From Leifsonia sp. Leaf336 (GTDB taxonomy: Bacteria; Actinomycetota; Actinomycetes; Actinomycetales; Microbacteriaceae), in NCBI RefSeq assembly GCF_001423695.1, contig NZ_LMOZ01000002.1, forward strand, positions 124,658-188,657: a stretch of DNA of 64,000 nt, read 5' to 3'. Positions 41,341 through 64,000 of this stretch are shown here, one piece after another (position 1 is the stretch's first letter; every line of letters begins with the position of its first letter). The notes under the pieces are model-generated. The model was not told where the DNA came from and did not search any database. It was given only the letters and a program-made list of their open reading frames with translations. The translations under genes were made by a program, and so were the position numbers.

Positions 41341-41742
41341 ATGCTCGAAGAACAGCTGATCCAGGCTGCCGGGTTCCGCAACGTCGGACCGGACGACGCC
41401 CCCTCGGGGTTCCAGCTGCGGGTGCGGAGCCCGTACTACCGCGGGCTCTGGGGCAACCTGATCGAGAAGCCGACAGTGACCGTCGACGGCGAGGAGTTCG
41501 GCGGGGACGACATCGTCTGGACCCTGCCGACCGGCGAGTACACCTTCGACGAGCTGCAGAGGTCGCCCGACGCGCGCTGGCCCATGGACGCGCCGGCACT
41601 GCTCACCGTTCCCAAACCCGGCGGGCTGACGCGCGGCATCCACGATGTGACGCTCGAGCTGCGCCTGCGCATGTCGTACATCCCCGAAGAGCTCCAGCCT
41701 TCGATCTGGACCACGAGCCGGAAGGCGGTGATCGTCCGATGA
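41341..41742 (+). CDS. C-glycoside deglycosidase beta subunit (DUF6379-like)
   Basis: A 133-residue beta-sandwich protein. GFQLRVRSPYYRGLWGNLIE matches the strand pattern (IPWYRSLWLS in its paralogs), then PTVTVDGEEFGGDDIVWTL, and HDVTLELRLRMSYIPEEL near the end, where paralogs have RLPYMQI. This is the beta subunit type (DgpB/CarB) that forms the cleavage enzyme with a TIM-barrel alpha subunit. Its stop overlaps the start of the next gene, an alpha subunit, by 4 bp, so the pair is made together. AAGGAAGG precedes the ATG. Confidence 0.82.
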   Translation: MLEEQLIQAAGFRNVGPDDAPSGFQLRVRSPYYRGLWGNLIEKPTVTVDGEEFGGDDIVWTLPTGEYTFDELQRSPDARWPMDAPALLTVPKPGGLTRGIHDVTLELRLRMSYIPEELQPSIWTTSRKAVIVR

Positions 41743-42665
41743 GCGCGCTTCCGTTCGGCCTGGGCGTCTCCCTGTACAGCTACACCGAGGACATCGGCGT
41801 CACGATGACGGTCGAGGACTGCATCGAGGACGTCGCGGACCTCGGCGCCACCGGGCTCGAGATCCTCGGCGAGGGCCACATCGCGGACTACCCGAACCCC
41901 TCCACCGCCTGGATCGACGCCTGGTTGGCCCGCAACGAGCGTCTCGGGCTCACCCCGACCCTGTACGGATCGTGGATCGACACGCGCCGGTTCCCGGGCC
42001 GCTCGATGACGGCCGCGGAGGGCGCCGCCCAGCTCGCGCTCGACCTGCGGCTGGCCGGCCGGCTCGGCTTCTCGTTCGTGCGTCCGAAGATCGGCGTGAT
42101 CTCCGGCGATTTGCGGGTCGACCCGATCTGGCAGGAGGCGGTGGAGCGCAACCTGGAGCTCGCGGAGGAGCTCGGCATCGTCATCTGCCCCGAGATCCAC
42201 TGGCCGACGGTCATCAAGTCCCCGGTGGTCGAGGAGTACCTGGAGTTCAAGGAGCGCACCGGAGGTTCGCAGTTCGGCCTGCTGATCGACACCGGCGTCT
42301 TCGACGTACAGCGCTACCGGCGGCGCGGCGGCAGCGCCGCCTTCCGGATGGGCGACGGGGGAGCGATGCCGCCCGACGTGCCGTTCGTGCCGGTGTCCGA
42401 CCTCGCCGACGTGATGGAGCACACCGTGTACTTCCAGGCCAAGTTCTACGAGGTCGACGACGACCTGGTCGACCACTACATTCCCTGGCGGGAGATCATC
42501 GACGTCGTCGTCGCCTCCGGCTACACCGGCTGGCTGTCGAGCGAGTACGAGGGCCATCACGAGCCCTACCGTGCCGCCGACCAGCTGCGCCGGCAGCACG
42601 CCCTCATCCGATCCATCGCCGCCGAACGCGCGGCCGCCGCCCCGGCGCTCGCAGACGGGAACTGA
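41739..42665 (+). CDS. C-glycoside deglycosidase alpha subunit (TIM barrel)
   Basis: A 308-residue xylose-isomerase-like TIM barrel. GVSLYSYTEDIGVTMTVEDC begins the barrel. Metal-site positions expected for the fold are Glu (ICPEIHWP), Asp (GLLIDTGVFD) and Glu (WLSSEYEGHHEPYR). The third position, His in all its paralogs here (HVHAKFYD), is Gln in this one (VYFQAKFYEV). Known alpha subunits (DgpC/CarC) cleave the C-C bond of 3-keto-C-glycosides with a divalent metal. Paired by overlap with the beta gene, it is the best canonical alpha/beta unit of the island. Confidence 0.8.
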   Translation: MSALPFGLGVSLYSYTEDIGVTMTVEDCIEDVADLGATGLEILGEGHIADYPNPSTAWIDAWLARNERLGLTPTLYGSWIDTRRFPGRSMTAAEGAAQLALDLRLAGRLGFSFVRPKIGVISGDLRVDPIWQEAVERNLELAEELGIVICPEIHWPTVIKSPVVEEYLEFKERTGGSQFGLLIDTGVFDVQRYRRRGGSAAFRMGDGGAMPPDVPFVPVSDLADVMEHTVYFQAKFYEVDDDLVDHYIPWREIIDVVVASGYTGWLSSEYEGHHEPYRAADQLRRQHALIRSIAAERAAAAPALADGN

Positions 42666-42668
42666 CCC

Positions 42669-44150
42669 ATGCCCAACGGACTCATCGACGACGTGAGCCT
42701 GCGCGTCCACCCCGAGGGCGTCGCCCTCGCCCTCACCATCCCCTGGTACCGCAGCCTGTGGCTGTCGTCGGTCACCACGTTGCAGCTGACCCTCGACGGT
42801 GTGAAGGTGCCGGAGGAGGACCTCGCGTTCGAGCTCGACGGCGTGCGCTATCGCGTCGCCGACCTCCCTCAGCAGAGCGACGTGCTCTGGTACCTGCAGT
42901 GGCACCCGCTGCTGATCGTGCGGCGCGACCCGGCCGTCGAGCTCGGCGAGACGCACGAGGTCGAACTGCACGGCGAGCTGCGGCTGCCGTACATGCAGAT
43001 CAAGCCGGGGGAGGACGGCGGCCCCGGCCTCTACGTCCCGAACGTCGTGCACCAGCGGCTGACGCTCACCGCGACCGACCACGACGCCCCGCCGCCCGCG
43101 CTCGTCACCGATGTGCCGCCGGCACCGGAGGCGACCGAGGCCGACCCGTTCACGCTGGGGCTGACGCTGTACTCGGCCAGCGCGGAGTTCCGGGCGGGCT
43201 GGTTCGACTTCGACGGCCTCCTCGACCGCGTGGCCGAACTCTGCATCGGCCCGGGCATCGAGATCGTCGCCTCCCAGGTGCTGCCGACCTACCCGGTCGT
43301 GTCCGACGAGTTCGTCGCGACCTGGCGGGAGGCGTTCGACCGGCACGGCTTCGACGCCAGCTCGTTCGGGGCCAACCTCGACATGGGCAAGCGGCGCGAC
43401 CGCGACATGACGCCCGACGAGGAATTCGAGGTCAGCGAACTGCTGTTCCGCGGCGCGGCGAAGCTCGGCTTCCCGCTGGTGCGCATCCAGTCGGCCAAGC
43501 CCGCGCTGCTACGTCGCCTGCTGCCGATCGCCGAAGACCTCGAGCTGAAGCTCGCCTTCGAGATCCACGCTCCCCTCGGGCCGAACTCGCCGGAGATCGT
43601 GTCGGTGCGCGACCTCTACGCCGAGCTCGACTCGCCGCTGCTCGGGTTCGTGGCCGACTTCTCCTCGACCATGCAGAGCATGTCGCCGACGCTGCTGCGT
43701 GCGGTGCGGCGGGCGGGTCTCGACGATGCGGCGGTGCAGCGCCTCCAGGAGATCTGGGCGACCGACGCGTCGATGCGCGAACGCCAGCAGGAGTTCATCG
43801 GCTACCTGAACGGCCGCGGCTTCGACCCTGGGCGGCTCGGCGCGTTCGCCCACCTGGCGTTCAACATGCACGGCCACGTCGACCCGCACGAGTGGTCCGA
43901 CATCATGCCGCAGATCCTGCACGTGCACGCCAAGTTCTACGACATCGACGAGAACGGCCAGGAGCCGGCGATCGACTATCCGGAGCTCGTGAAGGTGTTC
44001 GTCGAGGGAGGCTACCGCGGCTACTGGTCGAGCGAGTGGGAGGGGCACGCGTTCGCCGAGCTGGGGGAGGTCGACCCGCTCCTGCTCGTGCGCAAGCAGC
44101 ACGACCTCATCAGGGCCAGCATGCGCTCGCTGCAGACCGCCCGGCGGTAG
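42669..44150 (+). CDS. Single-chain beta-alpha fusion, C-glycoside deglycosidase-like
   Basis: A 493-residue protein in which both subunits are joined. Residues 1-135 are a beta-type domain (IPWYRSLWLSSVTTLQLTLD, then RLPYMQIKPGEDGGPGLYVP). An Ala/Pro linker follows (PPPALVTDVPPAPEATEADP, about 140-160). Residues 162-490 are a TIM barrel (LGLTLYSASAEFRAGWFDFD, NLDMGKRRDRDMTPDEE). All four metal positions are kept: FEIHAP, GFVADFSST, HVHAKFYD and SSEWEGHAF. There is no break in the frame. It ends the first operon, 29 bp before a terminator. The split genes 57053 and 58929 look like its separated halves. Confidence 0.82.
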   Translation: MPNGLIDDVSLRVHPEGVALALTIPWYRSLWLSSVTTLQLTLDGVKVPEEDLAFELDGVRYRVADLPQQSDVLWYLQWHPLLIVRRDPAVELGETHEVELHGELRLPYMQIKPGEDGGPGLYVPNVVHQRLTLTATDHDAPPPALVTDVPPAPEATEADPFTLGLTLYSASAEFRAGWFDFDGLLDRVAELCIGPGIEIVASQVLPTYPVVSDEFVATWREAFDRHGFDASSFGANLDMGKRRDRDMTPDEEFEVSELLFRGAAKLGFPLVRIQSAKPALLRRLLPIAEDLELKLAFEIHAPLGPNSPEIVSVRDLYAELDSPLLGFVADFSSTMQSMSPTLLRAVRRAGLDDAAVQRLQEIWATDASMRERQQEFIGYLNGRGFDPGRLGAFAHLAFNMHGHVDPHEWSDIMPQILHVHAKFYDIDENGQEPAIDYPELVKVFVEGGYRGYWSSEWEGHAFAELGEVDPLLLVRKQHDLIRASMRSLQTARR

Positions 44151-55941: not shown

Positions 55942-57056
55942 GCGACTCGACCTCCCGCCTCGGATCCCCGATCCAGGGCGTGACCCTCTACAGCTTCACG
56001 CGGGCGTTCCACGGCCGCGAGTACGACCTCGAAGGCCTCATCCGCAAGGTCGCCGCCGACGGGTACGGTCCGGGGCTGGAGATCATCGGCTTCTCCAGCT
56101 TCCGCGGCTTCCCGACGATCGACGACGCGTTCGCGGGCTGGTTCCGCGACCTGGTCGCCGAGGTCGACCTCGTGCCGACGTCGCTGGCGATCAACGCCGA
56201 CATCGGCATCCACCGCGACCGGCTACTGAACCAGGACGAGCTCATCGAGTACATGCGCCGCCAGATCGAGGCCGCGGCGAAGCTCGGTTTCCCGATCGCG
56301 CGGGTGCAGATCTCGATCACGCCCGACTCGATGGCCGCGCTCGCGCCGATCGCCGAGCAGTACGGGGTGACGCTCGCGCTGGAGGTGCACGCCGACCAGT
56401 ACGCCTCGCACCCGCGCATCCTCGCGCTGCGCGACCGGTACGAGAAGGTCGGCTCCCCGTTCCTCGGCTTCACCGCCGACTGGGGCGCGACGACCGTGGG
56501 CTTCGCGCCGTCGCTGCTGGAGGCCTACCGCCGCCGCGGCGCGACGGACGAGCTGCTCGGCCAGGTCGTCGACCTCTGGAACGAGTTCTACGAAGCGGGC
56601 CCTCCCGCCGACCAGGCCGACCACGGCCAGCGCTTCGGCCGGTTCATCGGCCTCGCCGCGCAGAACGGCCGCCCCGACCTCGGCATCGACTTCGCCATCA
56701 ACGGCACCGGGCTCTTCGGCCCGGCCCGCGTCGACGACTGGCTCGAGATCATGCCGTGGATCAAGCACGTGCACGGCAAGTTCTTCGGCATCGACGAGAA
56801 CCACGAAGAGCCGTCCGTTCCGGTGCGCGACCTCATCGCGCTGCTGACGCAGAACGGCTACAACGGCGCGATCTCGAGCGAGTACGAGGGCTGGCACTGG
56901 AACTACTGGCAGTCGCCGTTCGAGATCATCCGCGACGAGCAGGCCGTGCAGCGCTCGGCTGCGCAGAACGCGGGGAGCCGGATGGTCACCGACGCCGCGG
57001 AGGCCCGCCTCCAGCTGTCGCAGTGGCTGCCGACCACCGAAGGAGCAAGCGCATGA
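55938..57056 (+). CDS. C-glycoside deglycosidase alpha subunit (TIM barrel), second copy
   Basis: A 372-residue TIM barrel. GVTLYSFTRAFHGREYDLEG starts it, and all four expected metal ligands are present: LALEVHAD, GFTADWGATT, HVHGKFFGIDEN and ISSEYEGWHWNYW. The two-residue HxH pattern and the Trp-rich end fit alpha subunits of C-glycoside deglycosidases. It pairs with the beta gene upstream and overlaps a second alpha-type gene downstream by 4 bp, so one beta might serve two alphas. Confidence 0.82.
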   Translation: MSDSTSRLGSPIQGVTLYSFTRAFHGREYDLEGLIRKVAADGYGPGLEIIGFSSFRGFPTIDDAFAGWFRDLVAEVDLVPTSLAINADIGIHRDRLLNQDELIEYMRRQIEAAAKLGFPIARVQISITPDSMAALAPIAEQYGVTLALEVHADQYASHPRILALRDRYEKVGSPFLGFTADWGATTVGFAPSLLEAYRRRGATDELLGQVVDLWNEFYEAGPPADQADHGQRFGRFIGLAAQNGRPDLGIDFAINGTGLFGPARVDDWLEIMPWIKHVHGKFFGIDENHEEPSVPVRDLIALLTQNGYNGAISSEYEGWHWNYWQSPFEIIRDEQAVQRSAAQNAGSRMVTDAAEARLQLSQWLPTTEGASA

Positions 57057-58111
57057 CCACTGAGAGCATGAGCACTGGCGAACCGGACGGCATCGTCGGC
57101 ACCGGCATCAAGCTGGGCACGACCCTCTACTCGATGACGAGCGAGTTCGCGGCCGGCCTCTACACGCCAGAGACCCTGATCGCCTCGGTCGCCGAGAACG
57201 GCATCGGCCCGGGCGTCGAGTTCAACATCGCCCAGTTGCTGCGCACGTACCCCGACGTCGATGCGGAGTTCGAGAAGCTCTGGTTCGACTCGCTCGAGAA
57301 ATACGAGCTCGAGCCGAGCGCCGTCGGCACCAACCTCGACATGGGCCGTCGCAAAGACCGCGACATGACGCCGGACGAGGAGCACGACTTCCTCGCCCGG
57401 CAGCTGAAGACCGCGCACACGCTCGGCTTCAAGCGGGTCGTCATCCGCTCGGCCGGGCGCGAGCTGCTGCGCAGCCTCCTGCCGCTGGCCGAGAAGTACG
57501 ACCAGCGGCTCGGCTACGAGATCCACGCGCCGCAGGGCCCGAACGACCCCAAGGTCGTCGGCATCCGCGAGCTCTACGACGAGCTCGGCAGCGACCGGCT
57601 CGGCTTCACCGCCGACTTCTCCTCCACGATGCACAGCCTGTCGCCGACGCTGCTGTCGCAGCTGGCGAAGATGGGCCTCGACGAGAAGCACTTCGGCGTG
57701 ATGGACGAGATCTGGCACGAGCCGACGCCCATGCACGTGCGCAACCAGAAGTTCGAGGACTACCTCACCGGCGAGGGCGTCGACCCGGCGCGCTTCGGCC
57801 CGTTCACCCGGCTGGCGTTCAACATGCACGGCCTGGTGCCGCCGGAGGAGTGGCTCGACATCATGCCGCAGATCTTCCACGTGCACGCGAAGTTCTACGA
57901 CATCGACGCGGAGGGCCATGAGCCCGCCATGGACATCCCGCGCATCGTGCGCCAGTTCGTCCAGGGCGGCTACCGCGGGTACCTCTCCAGCGAGTGGGAG
58001 GGTCACGCGTTCCAGGACCTCGGGGAGGCCGACCCGATCGACCTCGTCAAGAAGCAGCACGCGCTCATGCGGCGCACCATCGAAGACGCCGTCGCCGGCG
58101 TCCCGGCCTGA
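57053..58111 (+). CDS. C-glycoside deglycosidase alpha subunit-like (TIM barrel), third copy
   Basis: A 352-residue TIM barrel. KLGTTLYSMTSEFAAGLYTP begins the barrel, and NLDMGRRKDRDMTPDEEHDF is almost the same as in the fusion protein at 42669. Metal positions are GYEIHAP, GFTADFSST, HVHAKFYD and SSEWEGHAF. It is clearly the free-standing version of the fused alpha domain. Its matching beta may be the protein at 58929, which resembles the fused beta domain, although an NTF2-like gene stands between. AAGGAGC precedes the ATG. Confidence 0.82.
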   Translation: MTTESMSTGEPDGIVGTGIKLGTTLYSMTSEFAAGLYTPETLIASVAENGIGPGVEFNIAQLLRTYPDVDAEFEKLWFDSLEKYELEPSAVGTNLDMGRRKDRDMTPDEEHDFLARQLKTAHTLGFKRVVIRSAGRELLRSLLPLAEKYDQRLGYEIHAPQGPNDPKVVGIRELYDELGSDRLGFTADFSSTMHSLSPTLLSQLAKMGLDEKHFGVMDEIWHEPTPMHVRNQKFEDYLTGEGVDPARFGPFTRLAFNMHGLVPPEEWLDIMPQIFHVHAKFYDIDAEGHEPAMDIPRIVRQFVQGGYRGYLSSEWEGHAFQDLGEADPIDLVKKQHALMRRTIEDAVAGVPA

Positions 58112-58133
58112 TCCGCGAAGGAGCACGTCAGCC

Positions 58134-58919
58134 ATGTCAGACACCGTCGCCGAGACCACCGTCTCGGAGCTCGTCGCCGAGGTCGCGCGCCTCCGCGAGG
58201 AGGTCGCGGCCGCGCGGGGCCTCGCCCGCCGCGCCGCCGACCGCGGCGAGATCGAGAACCTCTTCAGCCGCTACATGTACCTGCACAACGCGTTCGAGGA
58301 CGAGCAGATCATTCCGCTCTGGGTGAAGGAGGGCACGGAGGGCATCCGTGCCCGCTACACCAACGCGGGCCAGTACACGACCTACGAGAGCGTCATCCGG
58401 TACCACCAGGGGCGCCCGAACCCGGTCGGCAAGCTCATCCTGCACGCCACCACCACGCCCGTGATCGAGGTGGCCGCCGACGGCGAGACAGCCAAAGGCG
58501 TCTGGCTGATGGCCGGTACCGAGTCAGGCCTGACCGACCCGGTGGTCGCCAAGGACAGCCCCGACTTCATGTACTCGGCGGGCGAGGTGCAGGGCAAGAA
58601 AGTCTGGGCGCACTGGGTCTGGTGCAAGTACGCCATCGACTTCCTCCGCCAGGACGGCGAGTGGAAGATCTGGAAGTTCCGCTGCTACGAGCTCGCCCGC
58701 GCGCCGTTCGAGGAGAACTGGGTCAGCTTCGGCGAGAAGAACCAGGATGCCTTCGACCTCGACCTGATGTACTTCGGCGACGACGGCAAACCCGTGTTCA
58801 TGCCGCCGGCGGACGAGCCCGTGCCGAGCGAGAACCACCCGTACAGCCCGAGCACGGTGCAGACGCTCGAGCCCGCGCCTCCGGTCCCGCACGACACCTT
58901 CACCGACACGTTCAAGTAG
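58134..58919 (+). CDS. NTF2/SnoaL-like protein, long form
   Basis: A 261-residue protein. A short N-terminal coiled-coil-like helix (SELVAEVARLREEVAAARGL) precedes an NTF2-like domain: RGEIENLFSRYMYLHNAFED, then GVWLMAGTESG and HWVWCKYAIDFLRQDGEWKI, WKFRCYELARAPFEENWVSF. The tail (about 60 residues, Pro-rich) is unusual. Similar multi-substrate NTF2-like proteins occur beside aromatic and glycoside catabolic genes. It sits between an alpha-type and a beta-type gene. GAAGGAG precedes the ATG. The reaction is unknown. Confidence 0.75.
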   Translation: MSDTVAETTVSELVAEVARLREEVAAARGLARRAADRGEIENLFSRYMYLHNAFEDEQIIPLWVKEGTEGIRARYTNAGQYTTYESVIRYHQGRPNPVGKLILHATTTPVIEVAADGETAKGVWLMAGTESGLTDPVVAKDSPDFMYSAGEVQGKKVWAHWVWCKYAIDFLRQDGEWKIWKFRCYELARAPFEENWVSFGEKNQDAFDLDLMYFGDDGKPVFMPPADEPVPSENHPYSPSTVQTLEPAPPVPHDTFTDTFK

Positions 58920-58928
58920 GAGACGCTG

Positions 58929-59345
58929 ATGGCCACACACAACTCGCTCTTCGCCGAGAGGGACGTCCGGCGCACGGCCGACGGCATCGCCGTCTCGGTG
59001 CAGCTGCCCTGGTACCGCAGCCTCTGGCTGTCCGCCGTCGACGACGTCGCCGCGACGGTCAACGGCGTCGCGATCCCGCGCGACGACCTCCGCTTCGAGC
59101 TGAACGGACGCAGCTACCGCATCGACGAGCTGCCCGAGCAGACCGAGACCCTCTGGTTCGTCGCCGACCGTCCGGACGTCGTGATCCCGCTGGGCCACGC
59201 GCCGGCGGCCGGCGAGAAGCTCACGGTGGAGGTCGTGCTCACGATGCGGCTGCTCTACATGCAGATCATGCCGGGAGTCGACGGCGGCCCCGGCCGGTAC
59301 GTGACCAACCGCGTGCCCGTCGAGCGCGAGCTGGTGCTGGCATGA
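58929..59345 (+). CDS. C-glycoside deglycosidase beta subunit-like (DUF6379-like), third free copy
   Basis: A 138-residue beta-type domain. LPWYRSLWLSAVDDVAATVN and LLYMQIMPGVDGGPGRYVTN closely match residues in the N-terminal half of the fusion at 42669 (IPWYRSLWLS and YMQIKPGEDGGPGLYV). It therefore looks like the free form of that fused beta domain, with the protein at 57053 as its alpha partner. It is followed with 4-bp overlap by the Gfo/Idh/MocA gene. Confidence 0.82.
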   Translation: MATHNSLFAERDVRRTADGIAVSVQLPWYRSLWLSAVDDVAATVNGVAIPRDDLRFELNGRSYRIDELPEQTETLWFVADRPDVVIPLGHAPAAGEKLTVEVVLTMRLLYMQIMPGVDGGPGRYVTNRVPVERELVLA

Positions 59346-60523
59346 CGCTGCGGGTGGCCATGATCGGCTACGGGTTCATGGGCGCGGCCCACTCGGTGGG
59401 CTGGCGGCAGGCGCCGCGGGTCTTCGACCTCCCCGACACCGTCGAGATGGCCGTAGTCGTCGGCCGGAACAGCGATGCTGTCGCCCGCGCCGCCGAGCAG
59501 TGGGGCTGGGCCGAGTCGGCCACGGACTGGCGGGAGGTCATCGCCCGCGACGACATCGACCTCGTCGACATCGTGACGCCGGGCGACTCGCACGCCGAGA
59601 TCGCGATCGCGGCTCTGGACGCCGGCAAGCACGTGCTGTGCGAGAAGCCGCTCGCGAACAGCGTCGAGGAGGCCGAGGCGATGGCGGCGGCCGCCGAGCG
59701 CGCGGCCGGGAACGGCGTGCGCGCGATGGTGGGGTTCACCTACCGTCGCGTGCCCGCGGTCTCCCTCCTGCAGGACCTGATCGCCCGCGGCACGATCGGC
59801 GAGGTGCGCCAGGTGCGCGCGGCCTATCGTCAGGACTGGCTGGTCGACCCCTCCGTCCCGCTCGGCTGGCGCCTCCAGAAGGAGCACGCCGGCTCGGGTG
59901 CGCTCGGCGACATCGGCGCGCACATCGTGGACATGACGCAGTTCGTGACCGGCCGGCGCGTGACGCGTGTGTCAGGCACGGTCGAGACGATCGTCGCCCG
60001 ACGGCCTCTGCTCCGTGAGCGGACCGGGTTCGCCGGCAGCTCCACGGGCGAGCTCGGGGAGGTGACGGTCGACGACGTCGCGATCTTCACGGGCAGGCTC
60101 GACGGCGGCGCCCTCGTCTCGTTCGAAGCCACGCGCTTCGCGACCGGCCGCAAGAACGCCCTCACCATCGAGGTCTCGGGCTCTGATGGCGCACTGGCGT
60201 TCGACCTCGAACGCCTCAACGAGCTGCGGTACTACGACCGCAACGCGCCGGGCGAGCTGCAGGGGTTCACGACGATCCTGGTCACCGAGCCCGAGCATCC
60301 CTACGTCTCGGCCTGGTGGCCGCCCGGCCACATGCTCGGCTACGAGCACGGCTTCTCCCACCAGGTGGTGGACTTCGTCACGGCGATCGCGCATGGCACC
60401 GAGCTCGACCCGACGTTCGATGACGGCCTGGCGGTGCAGCGTGTGCTCGCGGCGGTGGAGGCCAGCTCGGCGAACGATTCGGCGTGGGTCGCGGTCGAGG
60501 CCGCGGTGCCCGCCCACCCATAG
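59342..60523 (+). CDS. Gfo/Idh/MocA-family oxidoreductase (DgpA-type)
   Basis: A 393-residue NAD(P)-dependent oxidoreductase. The Rossmann motif VAMIGYGFMGAAHSVGWRQA is followed by the Lys signature HVLCEKPLANS. GALGDIGAHIVDMTQFVTGR carries the catalytic Asp/His, and a C-terminal sheet (DGGALVSFEATRFATGR) completes the fold. In gut bacteria DgpA of this family oxidises C-glycosides at sugar C3 before cleavage. Here it could do that, or reduce the released 3-keto sugar. It overlaps the beta-type gene by 4 bp. Confidence 0.9.
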   Translation: MTLRVAMIGYGFMGAAHSVGWRQAPRVFDLPDTVEMAVVVGRNSDAVARAAEQWGWAESATDWREVIARDDIDLVDIVTPGDSHAEIAIAALDAGKHVLCEKPLANSVEEAEAMAAAAERAAGNGVRAMVGFTYRRVPAVSLLQDLIARGTIGEVRQVRAAYRQDWLVDPSVPLGWRLQKEHAGSGALGDIGAHIVDMTQFVTGRRVTRVSGTVETIVARRPLLRERTGFAGSSTGELGEVTVDDVAIFTGRLDGGALVSFEATRFATGRKNALTIEVSGSDGALAFDLERLNELRYYDRNAPGELQGFTTILVTEPEHPYVSAWWPPGHMLGYEHGFSHQVVDFVTAIAHGTELDPTFDDGLAVQRVLAAVEASSANDSAWVAVEAAVPAHP

Positions 60524-60535
60524 AGGAGGAACGTC

Positions 60536-61546
60536 ATGCCCCGACCGATCACCCTGTTCACCGGCCAGTGGGCCGACCTCCCGTTCGAAGAAGTGGCCCG
60601 GCTCGCCGGCGAGTGGGGCTACGACGGACTCGAGATCGCCTGCTGGGGCGACCACCTCGACGTGTCCCGATGGAACGACGCCGACTACGTGCGATCGCGC
60701 AAAGACATCCTGGAGCGCAACGGCCTCCAGGTCTGGACGATCTCCAACCACCTCGCCGGGCAGGCCGTCTGCGACGACCCGATCGACGAGCGCCACCGCG
60801 ACATCCTGAACGACCGGGTGTGGGGCGACGGCGACCCCGAGGGCGTGCGGCAGCGCGCCGCCGAGGAGCTGAAGCTCACCGCCCGCATGGCCGCGGCGCT
60901 GGGCGTGAAGACCGTCACCGGCTTCACCGGGTCGTCGATCTGGAAGGCCGTCGCGATGTTCCCGCCGGCCTCAGACGAGTGGATCGCCGCCGGTTACCGG
61001 GACTTCGCCGACCGCTTCCACCCGATCCTCGACGTCTTCGAGGAGGTCGGCGTCCGGTTCGCGCTGGAGGTGCATCCCTCCGAGATCGCATACGACTACT
61101 GGACCGCGAAGGCGACGCTGGAGGCCATCGGCCATCGCGAGAGCTTCGGGATCAACTTCGACCCCTCGCACTTCATGTGGCAGCAGCTCGACCCGGTGGC
61201 GTTCGTGCTCGACTTCGCCGACCACATCTTCCACGTGCACGTGAAGGAGTCGGTCACCAACCTCGACGGCCGCAACGGCGTGCTCGGCTCGCACCTGCCG
61301 TGGGCGAACCCGCGCCGCGGCTGGACGTTCGTCTCAACCGCGCACGGCGAGGTGCCGTGGGAGCCGATCTTCCGCGCGCTCAACTTCATCGGTTACACCG
61401 GACCGACCTCCGTCGAGTGGGAGGACGCCGGCATGGACCGCCTCCAGGGCGCCCCGGAGGCCATCGCCTTCGTGCGCGAGCTCAACGCGATCACCCCGCC
61501 CGACGCGGCCTTCGACGCCGCCTTCTCGACGAAGGCGGGCCGATGA
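60536..61546 (+). CDS. Sugar phosphate isomerase/epimerase-family TIM barrel
   Basis: A 336-residue TIM barrel unlike the alpha subunits in detail. [20 protein letters not shown] and [14 protein letters not shown] start it, [38 protein letters not shown] and [11 protein letters not shown] supply the metal ligands. The pattern is that of broad sugar isomerase/epimerase proteins often found beside MocA-type dehydrogenases and acting on 3-keto sugars or inosose-like compounds. GAGGAGGA precedes the ATG, and it overlaps the ThuA-like gene by 4 bp. Confidence 0.85.
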
Positions 61547-62412
61547 CGGAGGTCCTCGACGCGCTCATCCTCTCCGGCCATATGACGCGGGAGCACGACA
61601 ACGAGCACCGCAGCTTCCGCCAGCACAACGTCTGGCTGACGCAGCTGCTGGAGGACACCGGGCGCTTCCGGGTGCGGGTCGTGGAGGACCCGCGCGGCCT
61701 CGGCGCCGAGATCATCGACAAGTACGACGTGGTGATCGTGGTGTTCGAGGGCCGGGACGGCTATCACGAGAAGGCGGTCGGCTTCGGCCCGGAGACGGAC
61801 GCCGCGCTGCTGAAGTTCGTGCACGACGACGGCAAGGGCATCGTCTGGTTCCACGGCTCGGCCGCGCAGGAGGACGACTGGGGCTACCCGGACGAGTACA
61901 ACACCCTGCGCGGCTCGCGGCTGACGGTCGCGGGCGGCCTGCGGCCGCGTCCCTGGGGCGAGGCACAGCTCGACACCGTGGAGCCGCGACACCCGATCAC
62001 CGACGGCATCAGCGCGCGCTGGACCGTCACCGGCGACGACATCCTCACCGGCGTCGAGATCCTCGACGGCGCCCAGGTTCTGCTCACGACCTACGACGAC
62101 CTGGAGTCGTACGAGAAGGCGCCGGTCTGGCCGATGTCGCACTACCCGGTGGCGATCCCGGAGGAGGGGATCGCCGCCCTCCCCGGCATGAACACCGACC
62201 AGCCGATCGCCTGGATCAACGAGTACGGCGCCGGCCGCTCGTTCACCATCACGATCGGGCACGACATCGACACGTTCCGCCGCATCGAGTTCATCCGGAT
62301 GTTCCCGCGCGGCGTCGAGTGGGCCGCGACGGGCGCGGTGACGCTCGCCGGCCCGGACCGTCGGGGGGAGCGCCGCTTCCTCCCCTGGCCGTATTACAAC
62401 CGCGAAGGCTGA
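61543..62412 (+). CDS. ThuA-domain protein
   Basis: A 289-residue protein of the ThuA (trehalose-utilisation) group, a class I glutamine-amidotransferase-like fold without the catalytic Cys. [60 protein letters not shown] and [14 protein letters not shown] are typical. ThuA and its MocA-type partner ThuB act in 3-keto-disaccharide metabolism in rhizobia, so a role on the 3-keto sugar fits the local gene set. It ends the island's main strand, 16 bp from the converging fusion gene. Confidence 0.85.
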
Positions 62413-62428: not shown

Positions 62429-63736
62429 CTAGAGGGAGGCGCTGGCCAGCGCGAGGTGCGCGCGCGTCTGCTGGGTGGGGTCCTCGTCCAGCCACTCATG
62501 GCCTCCCCACTCGCTGCAGAGCGTGCCGGCGAAGCCGGCCGCGGCGTCTCGCAGGAGCGCGCCGAGGTCGCGCAGCGGCCGGGAGACGCGGTCGTCTGCG
62601 TCGTCGAGGTCCCAGAACTTGAGGTGGAACGCGCCGATGAGCGGGAGGATGCCGCGCAGCGCCTCCACCGGCGAGCGGCCGAATCGCACGAGCAGGTTCA
62701 TGTACAGCGCGTGCGCAGCGGGAGGCACGGCGCCCGATCGCAGGTGGGCCACGACGGCGTCGAGCGTCTCCGGCTCCAGCCACGCGTCGGTCAGCCGTGC
62801 CCGTAGCGCGTCCGGGATGTGCGGCGCGAGCGCCGCGAGGTAGGTGACCGGGAGCGCCGGCATCAACATGCTGGTGTCGATGAGCAGCCGGACGCGGGGA
62901 TCGTCGAATTCGGCGATATCGTCCATCGCCCGAGCGACAGCCGGTGCCTCCGGTGTCTGCTGCCCCTGGGCTTCCTCGTAGAGCGTCAGGTCGAGCTCGT
63001 GGAGCACGGGCTGCACGCGACGCAGCAGCGCGGGGCCGGCCTGTCCGAGCGGCAGCCGCACTCCCTCCGCCCCGAGGTCATGCGCGGTGCGCAACTGGGG
63101 GAGGAGGAAGGCGAGCCGCTCGTCGTCGTCGCGCCGCCTGGTGGGACTCACCCAGTCATCGAGGCTCGCGCCGACGATGCCGACCCGGCCGCCCGCGGCG
63201 GCGATCCGATCGCGGAGGTCCGCGGCCTCCGCCGGGGGTGTGATCGGGAACGACCTCCACAGCTGGCCCGGTTCGAGCTCGACCACGCGTGAGACTCCGG
63301 AGGCCACGATGCCGACCGCGATGTCGGCGGCCGGCCGCTCGGCGCGGATGACCTCTGGCGTCCAGTTGAAGGCGCTGGCGGCGAGCGTCCACGGCGTCTC
63401 GGCGACGGCCTCCAGGCGTCGCTCGCCCGCGAAGTCCAGCACCAGCGGTGCATCGGGCCCGGCCGGGAGGTACGGGATGAGCAGCCGGAACGACACGGCG
63501 ACACTGTGCGGGCCGGCGGAGAGCGGGCGGCGGCCGCGCAGGGCGAGCCGGTCTTGCACGAACCACCAGCCGTCGCCGTCCGGCACGTCGACGGCGCACT
63601 CCTCGCCGTCGAGGTGGAGGCGCACCCCTGACACGCTCGACAGCGGCAGCGACCGGATCCACGGCAGGCTCACGTGCACCGCGAACCCGTCGACGGAGGC
63701 GGTGAGCGCGTCGTCACGCAGGATCGGCAGGGTCAT
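62429..63736 (-). CDS. Second single-chain beta-alpha fusion, C-glycoside deglycosidase-like
   Basis: A 435-residue protein with the same beta-alpha order. Residues 1-115 are a beta-type domain (HVSLPWIRSLPLSSVSGVRL, then VAVSFRLLIPYLPAGPDAPL). Residues 125-435 are a TIM barrel (IAVGIVASGVSRVVELEPGQ). Metal positions are LYEEAQG, RLLIDTSML, AFHLKFWDLDD and CSEWGGHEWLDED, so it seems complete though diverged from the first fusion. It lies on the opposite strand to the rest of the island, with GGAGGAAG before the ATG and its own upstream palindromes. It is a separately regulated unit. Confidence 0.8.
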   Translation of the reverse strand: MTLPILRDDALTASVDGFAVHVSLPWIRSLPLSSVSGVRLHLDGEECAVDVPDGDGWWFVQDRLALRGRRPLSAGPHSVAVSFRLLIPYLPAGPDAPLVLDFAGERRLEAVAETPWTLAASAFNWTPEVIRAERPAADIAVGIVASGVSRVVELEPGQLWRSFPITPPAEAADLRDRIAAAGGRVGIVGASLDDWVSPTRRRDDDERLAFLLPQLRTAHDLGAEGVRLPLGQAGPALLRRVQPVLHELDLTLYEEAQGQQTPEAPAVARAMDDIAEFDDPRVRLLIDTSMLMPALPVTYLAALAPHIPDALRARLTDAWLEPETLDAVVAHLRSGAVPPAAHALYMNLLVRFGRSPVEALRGILPLIGAFHLKFWDLDDADDRVSRPLRDLGALLRDAAAGFAGTLCSEWGGHEWLDEDPTQQTRAHLALASASL

Positions 63737-63752
63737 GGCACTCTTCCTCCGG

Positions 63753-63771
63753 CTTATGTAGGAAAGCTACA
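63753..63771. promoter_or_regulatory. CTTATGTA motif with short palindrome upstream of the second fusion
   Basis: CTTATGTA (63753-63760) overlaps the inverted repeat TGTAG-GAAAG-CTACA (63757-63771). The site is 17 bp before the start codon of the minus-strand fusion gene. The motif repeats that at 55486 and the half-site at 45281. Confidence 0.45.
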
Positions 63772-63814
63772 CGCTTCTACTCGAATCCGAAAGAAGAATG
63801 CTTGCGTGAAATAT

Positions 63815-63833
63815 CGGGTGACTACGTCACCCG
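63815..63833. promoter_or_regulatory. Perfect 19-bp palindrome upstream of the second fusion
   Basis: CGGGTGACTACGTCACCCG has 8-bp arms around TAC, 79 bp before the fusion gene start. It reads as a regulator operator. The rest of 63834-64000 holds no gene I can support; only short ORFs without ribosome sites run to the window edge. Confidence 0.55.
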
Positions 63834-64000
63834 ACGGATGACCGAGATTCAGATGCGCCAGCACCGTCTTCGTGCCCTCCGCTGACCCGTGAATGCCTGG
63901 GAAGACATGGCGAGAACGTCATCAAGCCGACCGCCGAACCGGGCCGTCGAACCAGTGGCCCGCTGTCTGCTCGCGCGTTGCCGCGCTGTCGACGTCCGGT

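Follow-up and report, generated by a model that had tools for sequence, protein, structure and literature searches.

A strictly conserved CGD-family variant that lacks the catalytic His/Glu pair and keeps its metal site, a putative 3-keto-glycoside isomerase or epimerase beside a Leifsonia C-glycoside gene cluster

We analyzed a 64,000-nucleotide stretch of DNA from Leifsonia sp. Leaf336 (contig NZ_LMOZ01000002.1, positions 124,658 to 188,657), referred to here as the window. Near its end lies F2, a minus-strand gene that converges on a cluster of genes related to C-glycoside deglycosidases (CGDs), the enzymes that cleave sugars from plant C-glycosides. F2, its domains, and the neighboring genes are as follows:

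62429..63736, minus strand: F2, a fused CGD-like beta-alpha protein of 435 amino acids (open reading frame, profile and sequence matches, model)
63401..63736, minus strand: CGDB-like beta-sandwich domain of F2 (residues 1-112); in most relatives it is longer by about 12 residues
62432..63400, minus strand: alpha domain of F2, an Mn-type TIM barrel, residues 113-435 (sequence and structure matches)
61564..62412, plus strand: ThuA-domain protein, the convergent neighbor of F2 across a 16-bp gap (neighborhood and profile search)
60536..61546, plus strand: SPI2, which matches 8ro4 and is the cluster's candidate 2-hydroxy-3-keto-glucal hydratase
59342..60523, plus strand: Gfo/Idh/MocA oxidoreductase of the cluster (profile search)
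58929..59345, plus strand: b4, canonical CGD beta (Pfam CGDB search)
57056..58111, plus strand: a4, canonical CGD alpha, ortholog of AgCGD2 with intact His/Glu (sequence matches, residue comparison)
42669..44150, plus strand: F1, the other beta-alpha fusion of the window, with an AgCGD2-like alpha and intact His/Glu (sequence matches, residues)

The F2 frame starts with ATG and runs without an internal stop for 435 codons to the ends of its interval. Its GC content by codon position (0.78/0.50/0.92), its low dN/dS (0.20-0.24 against three Leifsonia orthologs), and the presence of orthologs in Microbacteriaceae and Micrococcaceae together indicate that coding is not due to chance. The dN/dS values point to purifying selection on the F2 subfamily, and the open frame and a dN/dS of about 0.2 rule out a pseudogene.

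A preliminary description of this DNA had read F2 as a beta-alpha fusion with a short beta domain and no obvious long linker, and each of these observations holds. The N-terminal stretch of F2 has a weak match to the Pfam CGDB profile (E 0.0013; 19 bits against a cut-off of 27.6), and 40 members of the F2-family alignment (60 rows, 43 with a beta domain) match it at E ≤ 0.01. The alpha domain matches the AgCGD2 alpha chain (7dnm_A) in sequence (E 2.4e-21) and, in an AlphaFold model built from 60 sequences (pLDDT 93.8, pTM 0.83), in fold (Z 32.1, 319 residues aligned). The best structural matches of the model are CGDs, with 8un2/8qrz aligned across both domains, and CGD beta chains are also found among the matches. 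F2 thus almost certainly belongs to the CGD alpha/beta family. In the model, about 4 residues separate the last beta-sandwich strand (96-112) from the first barrel strand (117-121). Among 81 sequences examined for the distance between the LPWIR and WWF motifs (4 unreadable, 77 measurable), the spacing is 43-48 in 69/77, versus 33 in F2. The shortening is a local deletion found in 8/77 sequences, four of them Leifsonia including F2 itself, which rules out the short beta domain as a sign of independent origin.

Alignment with AgCGD2 located the active-site positions of F2. According to the available portion of PMC8563793, the Mn ligands of AgCGD2 are E147, D179, H269, K271, and E305, and H149 is the proposed catalytic base, with E307 in support. 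The equivalent positions in F2 are as follows:

62966..62974, minus strand: E255-A-Q257, barrel strand 5 motif; the metal ligand is retained and His149 is replaced by Gln
62876..62878, minus strand: D287, metal ligand (D179 in AgCGD2)
62618..62626, minus strand: H371-L-K373, metal ligands (H269 and K271 in AgCGD2)
62504..62512, minus strand: E409-W-G411; the ligand corresponding to E305 is retained and the catalytic Glu307 is replaced by Gly

All five metal ligands are therefore kept in F2 (E255, D287, H371, K373, and E409), and both members of the catalytic pair are replaced. The same holds across 84 F2-type alphas, comprising those of 80 loci found by a pattern scan, the F2 of the window, and three more. 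Position 149 is Gln in 84/84 and position 307 is Gly in all 83 that are readable there. E147 is kept in 84/84, and D179, H269, K271, and E305 in 83/83 readable sequences, with the conservation of D179 and K271 across the 80 loci owing partly to construction, as the scan patterns cover both. Further replacements are equally consistent: S124 to Q (84/84), N248 to R (83/83), and Y17 to F (83/83). A pattern-independent set, drawn from loci of a family-genome search plus the window, contains 18 F2 alphas, two of which are distant members; all 18 have the Gln/Gly combination and keep the Mn site. In these loci, 50/50 canonical CGD alphas have both His149 and Glu307, versus 0/18 F2 alphas (two broken alphas, G226 and G364, were left out of this comparison). 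The Gln and an SEWGG motif are also common to the distant relatives G016, G232, and G292 (36-39% identical) and to G572, which comes from another family of the phylum.

On this residue evidence, F2 represents a distinct subfamily of the CGD family that lacks the catalytic His/Glu pair and keeps the metal site. Overall, F2 is 26% identical to AgCGD2 (PDB 7DNM, Arthrobacter globiformis), with which it shares the alpha fold, the five metal ligands, and a beta partner; it differs in the five replacements given above and in having the beta domain fused. In the open-access literature searched, we found no description of a His-less CGD paralog.

To see where the subfamily occurs, we surveyed 398 genomes of the family, counting a match of at least 55% identity as strict F2 and a match at E ≤ 1e-80 as an a4 CGD. 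Strict F2 was found in 18 genomes, all of them among the 21 that carry an a4 CGD. The three a4 genomes without strict F2 are G055, which has no F2-type alpha, and G016 and G292, which have a member of the distant class; G232 likewise has a distant-class member and is without an a4 match at this threshold. In the genomes reached from the loci, alphas resembling a4, F1, and a3 accompany F2 in 11/11. Strict F2 was therefore found only alongside canonical CGDs (18/18 family genomes, 11/11 locus genomes). Matches to F2 occurred in 5/396 genomes order-wide and in 2/396 phylum-wide, the window's own genome included. Arthrobacter globiformis is the source species of AgCGD1 and AgCGD2, and an F2 ortholog is present in its strain NBRC 12137 (L079). 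Two loci titled Planococcus (L066) and Stenotrophomonas (L081) are Microbacterium-like, and these assemblies are probably contaminated or mislabeled.

We then examined the neighborhood of the 80 F2 loci, with flanks of up to 8 kb. Matches to the cluster of the window were frequent: Gfo in 65 loci, b4 in 63, SPI2 in 63, a4 in 59, ThuA in 54, and a3 in 49. F2 is usually convergent to the CGD operon, at the edge of the conserved cluster. The preliminary description had called F2 solitary and separately controlled. The first part does not stand, since F2 lies 16 bp from the ThuA gene and is itself a conserved neighbor of the CGD cluster; separate control is compatible with the position of F2 on the opposite strand, an upstream element of its own, and the frequent presence of a regulator gene upstream. 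A private GMC oxidase for F2 was not supported, as the nearby GMC genes read as the known types of the cluster. Between a4 and b4 (within 57056-59345) lies a gene that we take to be SnoaL-like, and the same intervening gene is found in many related loci.

A regulator gene of the ROK family lies upstream of F2 in 74/80 loci, and a Gfo-like gene in 60/80. In Leifsonia shinshuensis, 142 bp separate the end of the ROK gene from F2. In the genome of the window, the ROK copy (Pfam ROK, 188 bits) is separated from F2 by approximately 3.1 kb of other genes (L036 1895-4985, partly past the window end at 64000). One of these encodes a 411-aa protein with no Pfam match at E ≤ 1e-5. Beyond the ROK gene (L036 6502-9704) are genes of the glyoxalase/dioxygenase type and the FAD-binding oxygenase type, and other F2 loci presumably hold FAA-hydrolase-like and cyclase-like genes. 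This gene content fits aromatic-aglycone catabolism, and the dioxygenase-like and FAD oxygenase-like genes probably serve the breakdown of the released aromatic aglycone.

Palindromes in the F2 promoter had also been proposed, which holds in part; two features are present upstream of the gene:

63752..63771, minus strand: operator-like element near the F2 promoter, a degenerate copy of TGTAGCTTACnnnnGTAAGC with 2 mismatches (expectation for the whole window, 0.03)
63814..63834, no strand assigned: inverted repeat TCGGGTGAC-TAC-GTCACCCGA, with 9-bp arms (repeat search)

The TGTAGCTTACnnnnGTAAGC element sits just upstream of F2 in three Leifsonia relatives (L056-L058). Exact two-half-site operator patterns are confined to three Leifsonia loci, where they precede F2; with 5 occurrences in the 80 loci and 4 in one shuffle, the pattern shows position and not enrichment. 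The inverted repeat is absent from the upstream sequence examined for three Leifsonia relatives, and perfect repeats of this kind (arms of at least 7, spacers of at most 4) arose in 49/500 shuffles of the 264-bp stretch, so the repeat itself is weak evidence for a promoter palindrome.

F2-type genes occur in three arrangements: fused in 26 of the 80 loci, tandem beta-alpha in 38, and divergent in 16. Fusion in 26/80 loci, including those of Leifsonia and Diaminobutyricibacter, rules out an assembly artifact and confirms that the architecture exists elsewhere. On the F2 alpha tree (F2-subfamily alpha trees exclude the truncated L102 and the frameshifted L132), the fused label requires 9-10 changes. 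A clade with SH-aLRT 97 unites the fused F2 of the window with those of three Leifsonia loci, of Diaminobutyricibacter, and of G028. Because 54/80 loci are unfused and a single clade of all fused forms is rejected within the subfamily (AU P = 0.0012), the fusion state changes readily.

The two fusions of the window were suspected to be independent events. In the alpha tree, from which G226 and G364 were also omitted, the F2 sequences group as a single clade (SH-aLRT 100), and those of F1 cluster with the split a4/AgCGD2 type (95). The beta tree shows the same pattern, with a single F2 clade (96) and the F1 sequences placed with b4 (93). These are quick trees with SH-aLRT support only, in which long branches affect the deep nodes that connect a1, a3, and the other types. 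Separate clades in both trees and, as the stronger argument, the lability of fusion favor an F2 fusion independent of that of F1, but a single F1 + F2 clade is not rejected by the AU test (P = 0.424 for alpha, 0.102 for beta).

The top Foldseek match, the Microbacterium testaceum CGD (8QRZ/8UN2), is a natural 435-aa fusion with the beta-alpha order and length of F2. Unlike F2, it keeps the E-x-H motif, is only 17% identical, and has halves that match b1 (residues 2-130) and a1 (residues 138-432), indicating that fusion arose in at least one further lineage. Given this protein and the 26 fused loci, fusion itself is already known and is not unique to F2; what is new here is a strictly conserved CGD-family variant with a putative reaction. 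The Deinococcus aerius CGD (8QVC) and DgpBC/PuCGD (7BVR) have the same barrel and alpha and beta parts, but they are heteromers of separate subunits and keep the His. The available text of a 2025 review (PMC12141560) describes when heterodimeric enzymes fuse as something yet to be learned. The F2 orthologous pair, which is fused, tandem, or divergent in close relatives, offers a natural comparison for this question.

Because His149 and Glu307 are lost, F2 should not be able to work by the accepted CGD mechanism. It is likely that F2 is not a canonical eliminase, and it probably carries out another step of the C-glycoside pathway. The suggestion in the preliminary description of a different substrate or role thereby gains support from a feature it had not seen; overall, its observation is confirmed and its interpretation partly so. 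A beta partner is fused to the F2-type alpha or lies within 2.5 kb of it in 80/80 loci, so the substrate probably still carries the aglycone.

Tentatively, and at somewhat short of an even chance, we propose that F2 is a metal- and Glu-dependent isomerase or epimerase of 3-keto-glycosides. This reading is favored by the loss of the His/Glu pair with every metal ligand kept, the coverage of hydration by SPI2, the retained beta domain, the restriction of strict F2 to genomes that also have canonical CGDs, and a precedent for metal-Glu chemistry. In ketose 3-epimerases, two metal-bound Glu residues carry out proton exchange, as described in the accessible part of PMC8167858. F2 has the corresponding residue features: two metal-bound Glu residues and, two positions beyond the strand-5 Glu, a residue other than His. 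A His at this position is absent in 5/5 ketose-3-epimerase-type structures compared, including YcjR (6WN6), whereas E-x-H is present in the CGD alphas whose alignments were examined and in the solved hydratase 8ro4. YcjR, named as a 3-keto-D-glucoside 4-epimerase, provides a precedent for the 3-keto-glycoside class of substrate.

The CGD beta subunit assists aglycone binding. In the proposed reaction, F2 would receive intact 3-keto-glycosides from the GMC oxidases of the cluster, prior to sugar release. The beta-sandwich beside the Mn-type barrel would keep hold of the aglycone, as in CGDs, and the metal-bound E255 and E409 would work as an acid/base pair. The 3-keto sugar would be epimerized or isomerized, making the glycoside cleavable by canonical CGDs. 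Against this proposal, the overall fold of F2 is nearer to CGDs than to the ketose 3-epimerases (Z about 21), and the superfamily epimerases among the structural matches, YcjR included, are single barrels with no beta domain listed. The conserved R351 and Q232 also find no part in this scheme, and the distant-class member of G232 occurs without an a4 match. More doubtful still is the fuller picture, in which the subfamily would be an undescribed 3-keto-(C-)glycoside epimerase or keto-isomerase on a CGD alpha/beta scaffold, with an aglycone-holding beta domain, a wider sugar range for degraders, and a gene pair that repeatedly switches between fused, tandem, and divergent forms.

The main rival, which we consider rather unlikely, is a re-tooled eliminase. 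F2 would still beta-eliminate 3-keto glycosides, with a site rebuilt for another aglycone or for O-glycosides and a metal-bound Glu or water replacing His149; Gln257 or another residue could also act in elimination by another route. The nearest fold and sequence are indeed those of CGDs, the beta domain is always there, and the conserved replacements Q232 and R351 are at substrate-contact positions. However, the His is important in CGDs: in the available portion of PMC8563793, Ala at the His and Glu positions lowers activity to 10.4% and 49.8%, respectively, in PuCGD and to 1.8% and 1.9% in MiCGD. The corresponding His is also essential in the O-glycoside eliminase AtOGE, an enzyme without sequence similarity, whose H134A variant is inactive. 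His and Glu are moreover lost together throughout the F2 clade, and three canonical CGD alphas are already present in F2 genomes (11/11).

It is improbable that F2 is a pseudoenzyme that binds, buffers, or senses 3-keto glycosides, possibly as an input to the ROK regulator; the lost catalytic pair and the upstream ROK gene would suit such a role, but the retention of every metal ligand and the low dN/dS suggest selected catalysis. Least probable is a hydratase converting released 2-hydroxy-3-keto-glucal to 3-keto-glucose: this kind of pathway requires hydration, and levoglucosan breakdown uses an Mn-stimulated enzyme annotated as a sugar phosphate isomerase for it, but SPI2, with matches in most loci, already matches the solved hydratase 8ro4 (E 2.9e-34), the E-x-H and E-x-E motifs of that enzyme are both absent from F2, and a free sugar has no need of an aglycone-binding domain. 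The hydratase 8ro4, which acts at a neighboring pathway step, is a sequence relative of the SPI2 barrel and closer to it than to F2; the 7 sequences that the F2 search listed at E ≤ 1 do not include it.

Actinobacterial C-glycoside clusters hold several CGD-like units, all of which annotation would label deglycosidases. One such unit, F2, is without the catalytic pair clade-wide and yet strictly maintained. As a putative isomerase or epimerase, F2 would mark a step in the pathway through which plant C-glycosides re-enter the carbon cycle.

Two further observations concern other barrels of the cluster. SPI2 (60536-61546) is far closer to 2zds, which was deposited as a "putative DNA-binding protein" and is probably misnamed, than to 8ro4. 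In a1-type alphas (41739-42665 in the window), the metal ligand His269 is replaced by Gln in 4/4, and by alignment 8QRZ also has Gln at this position.
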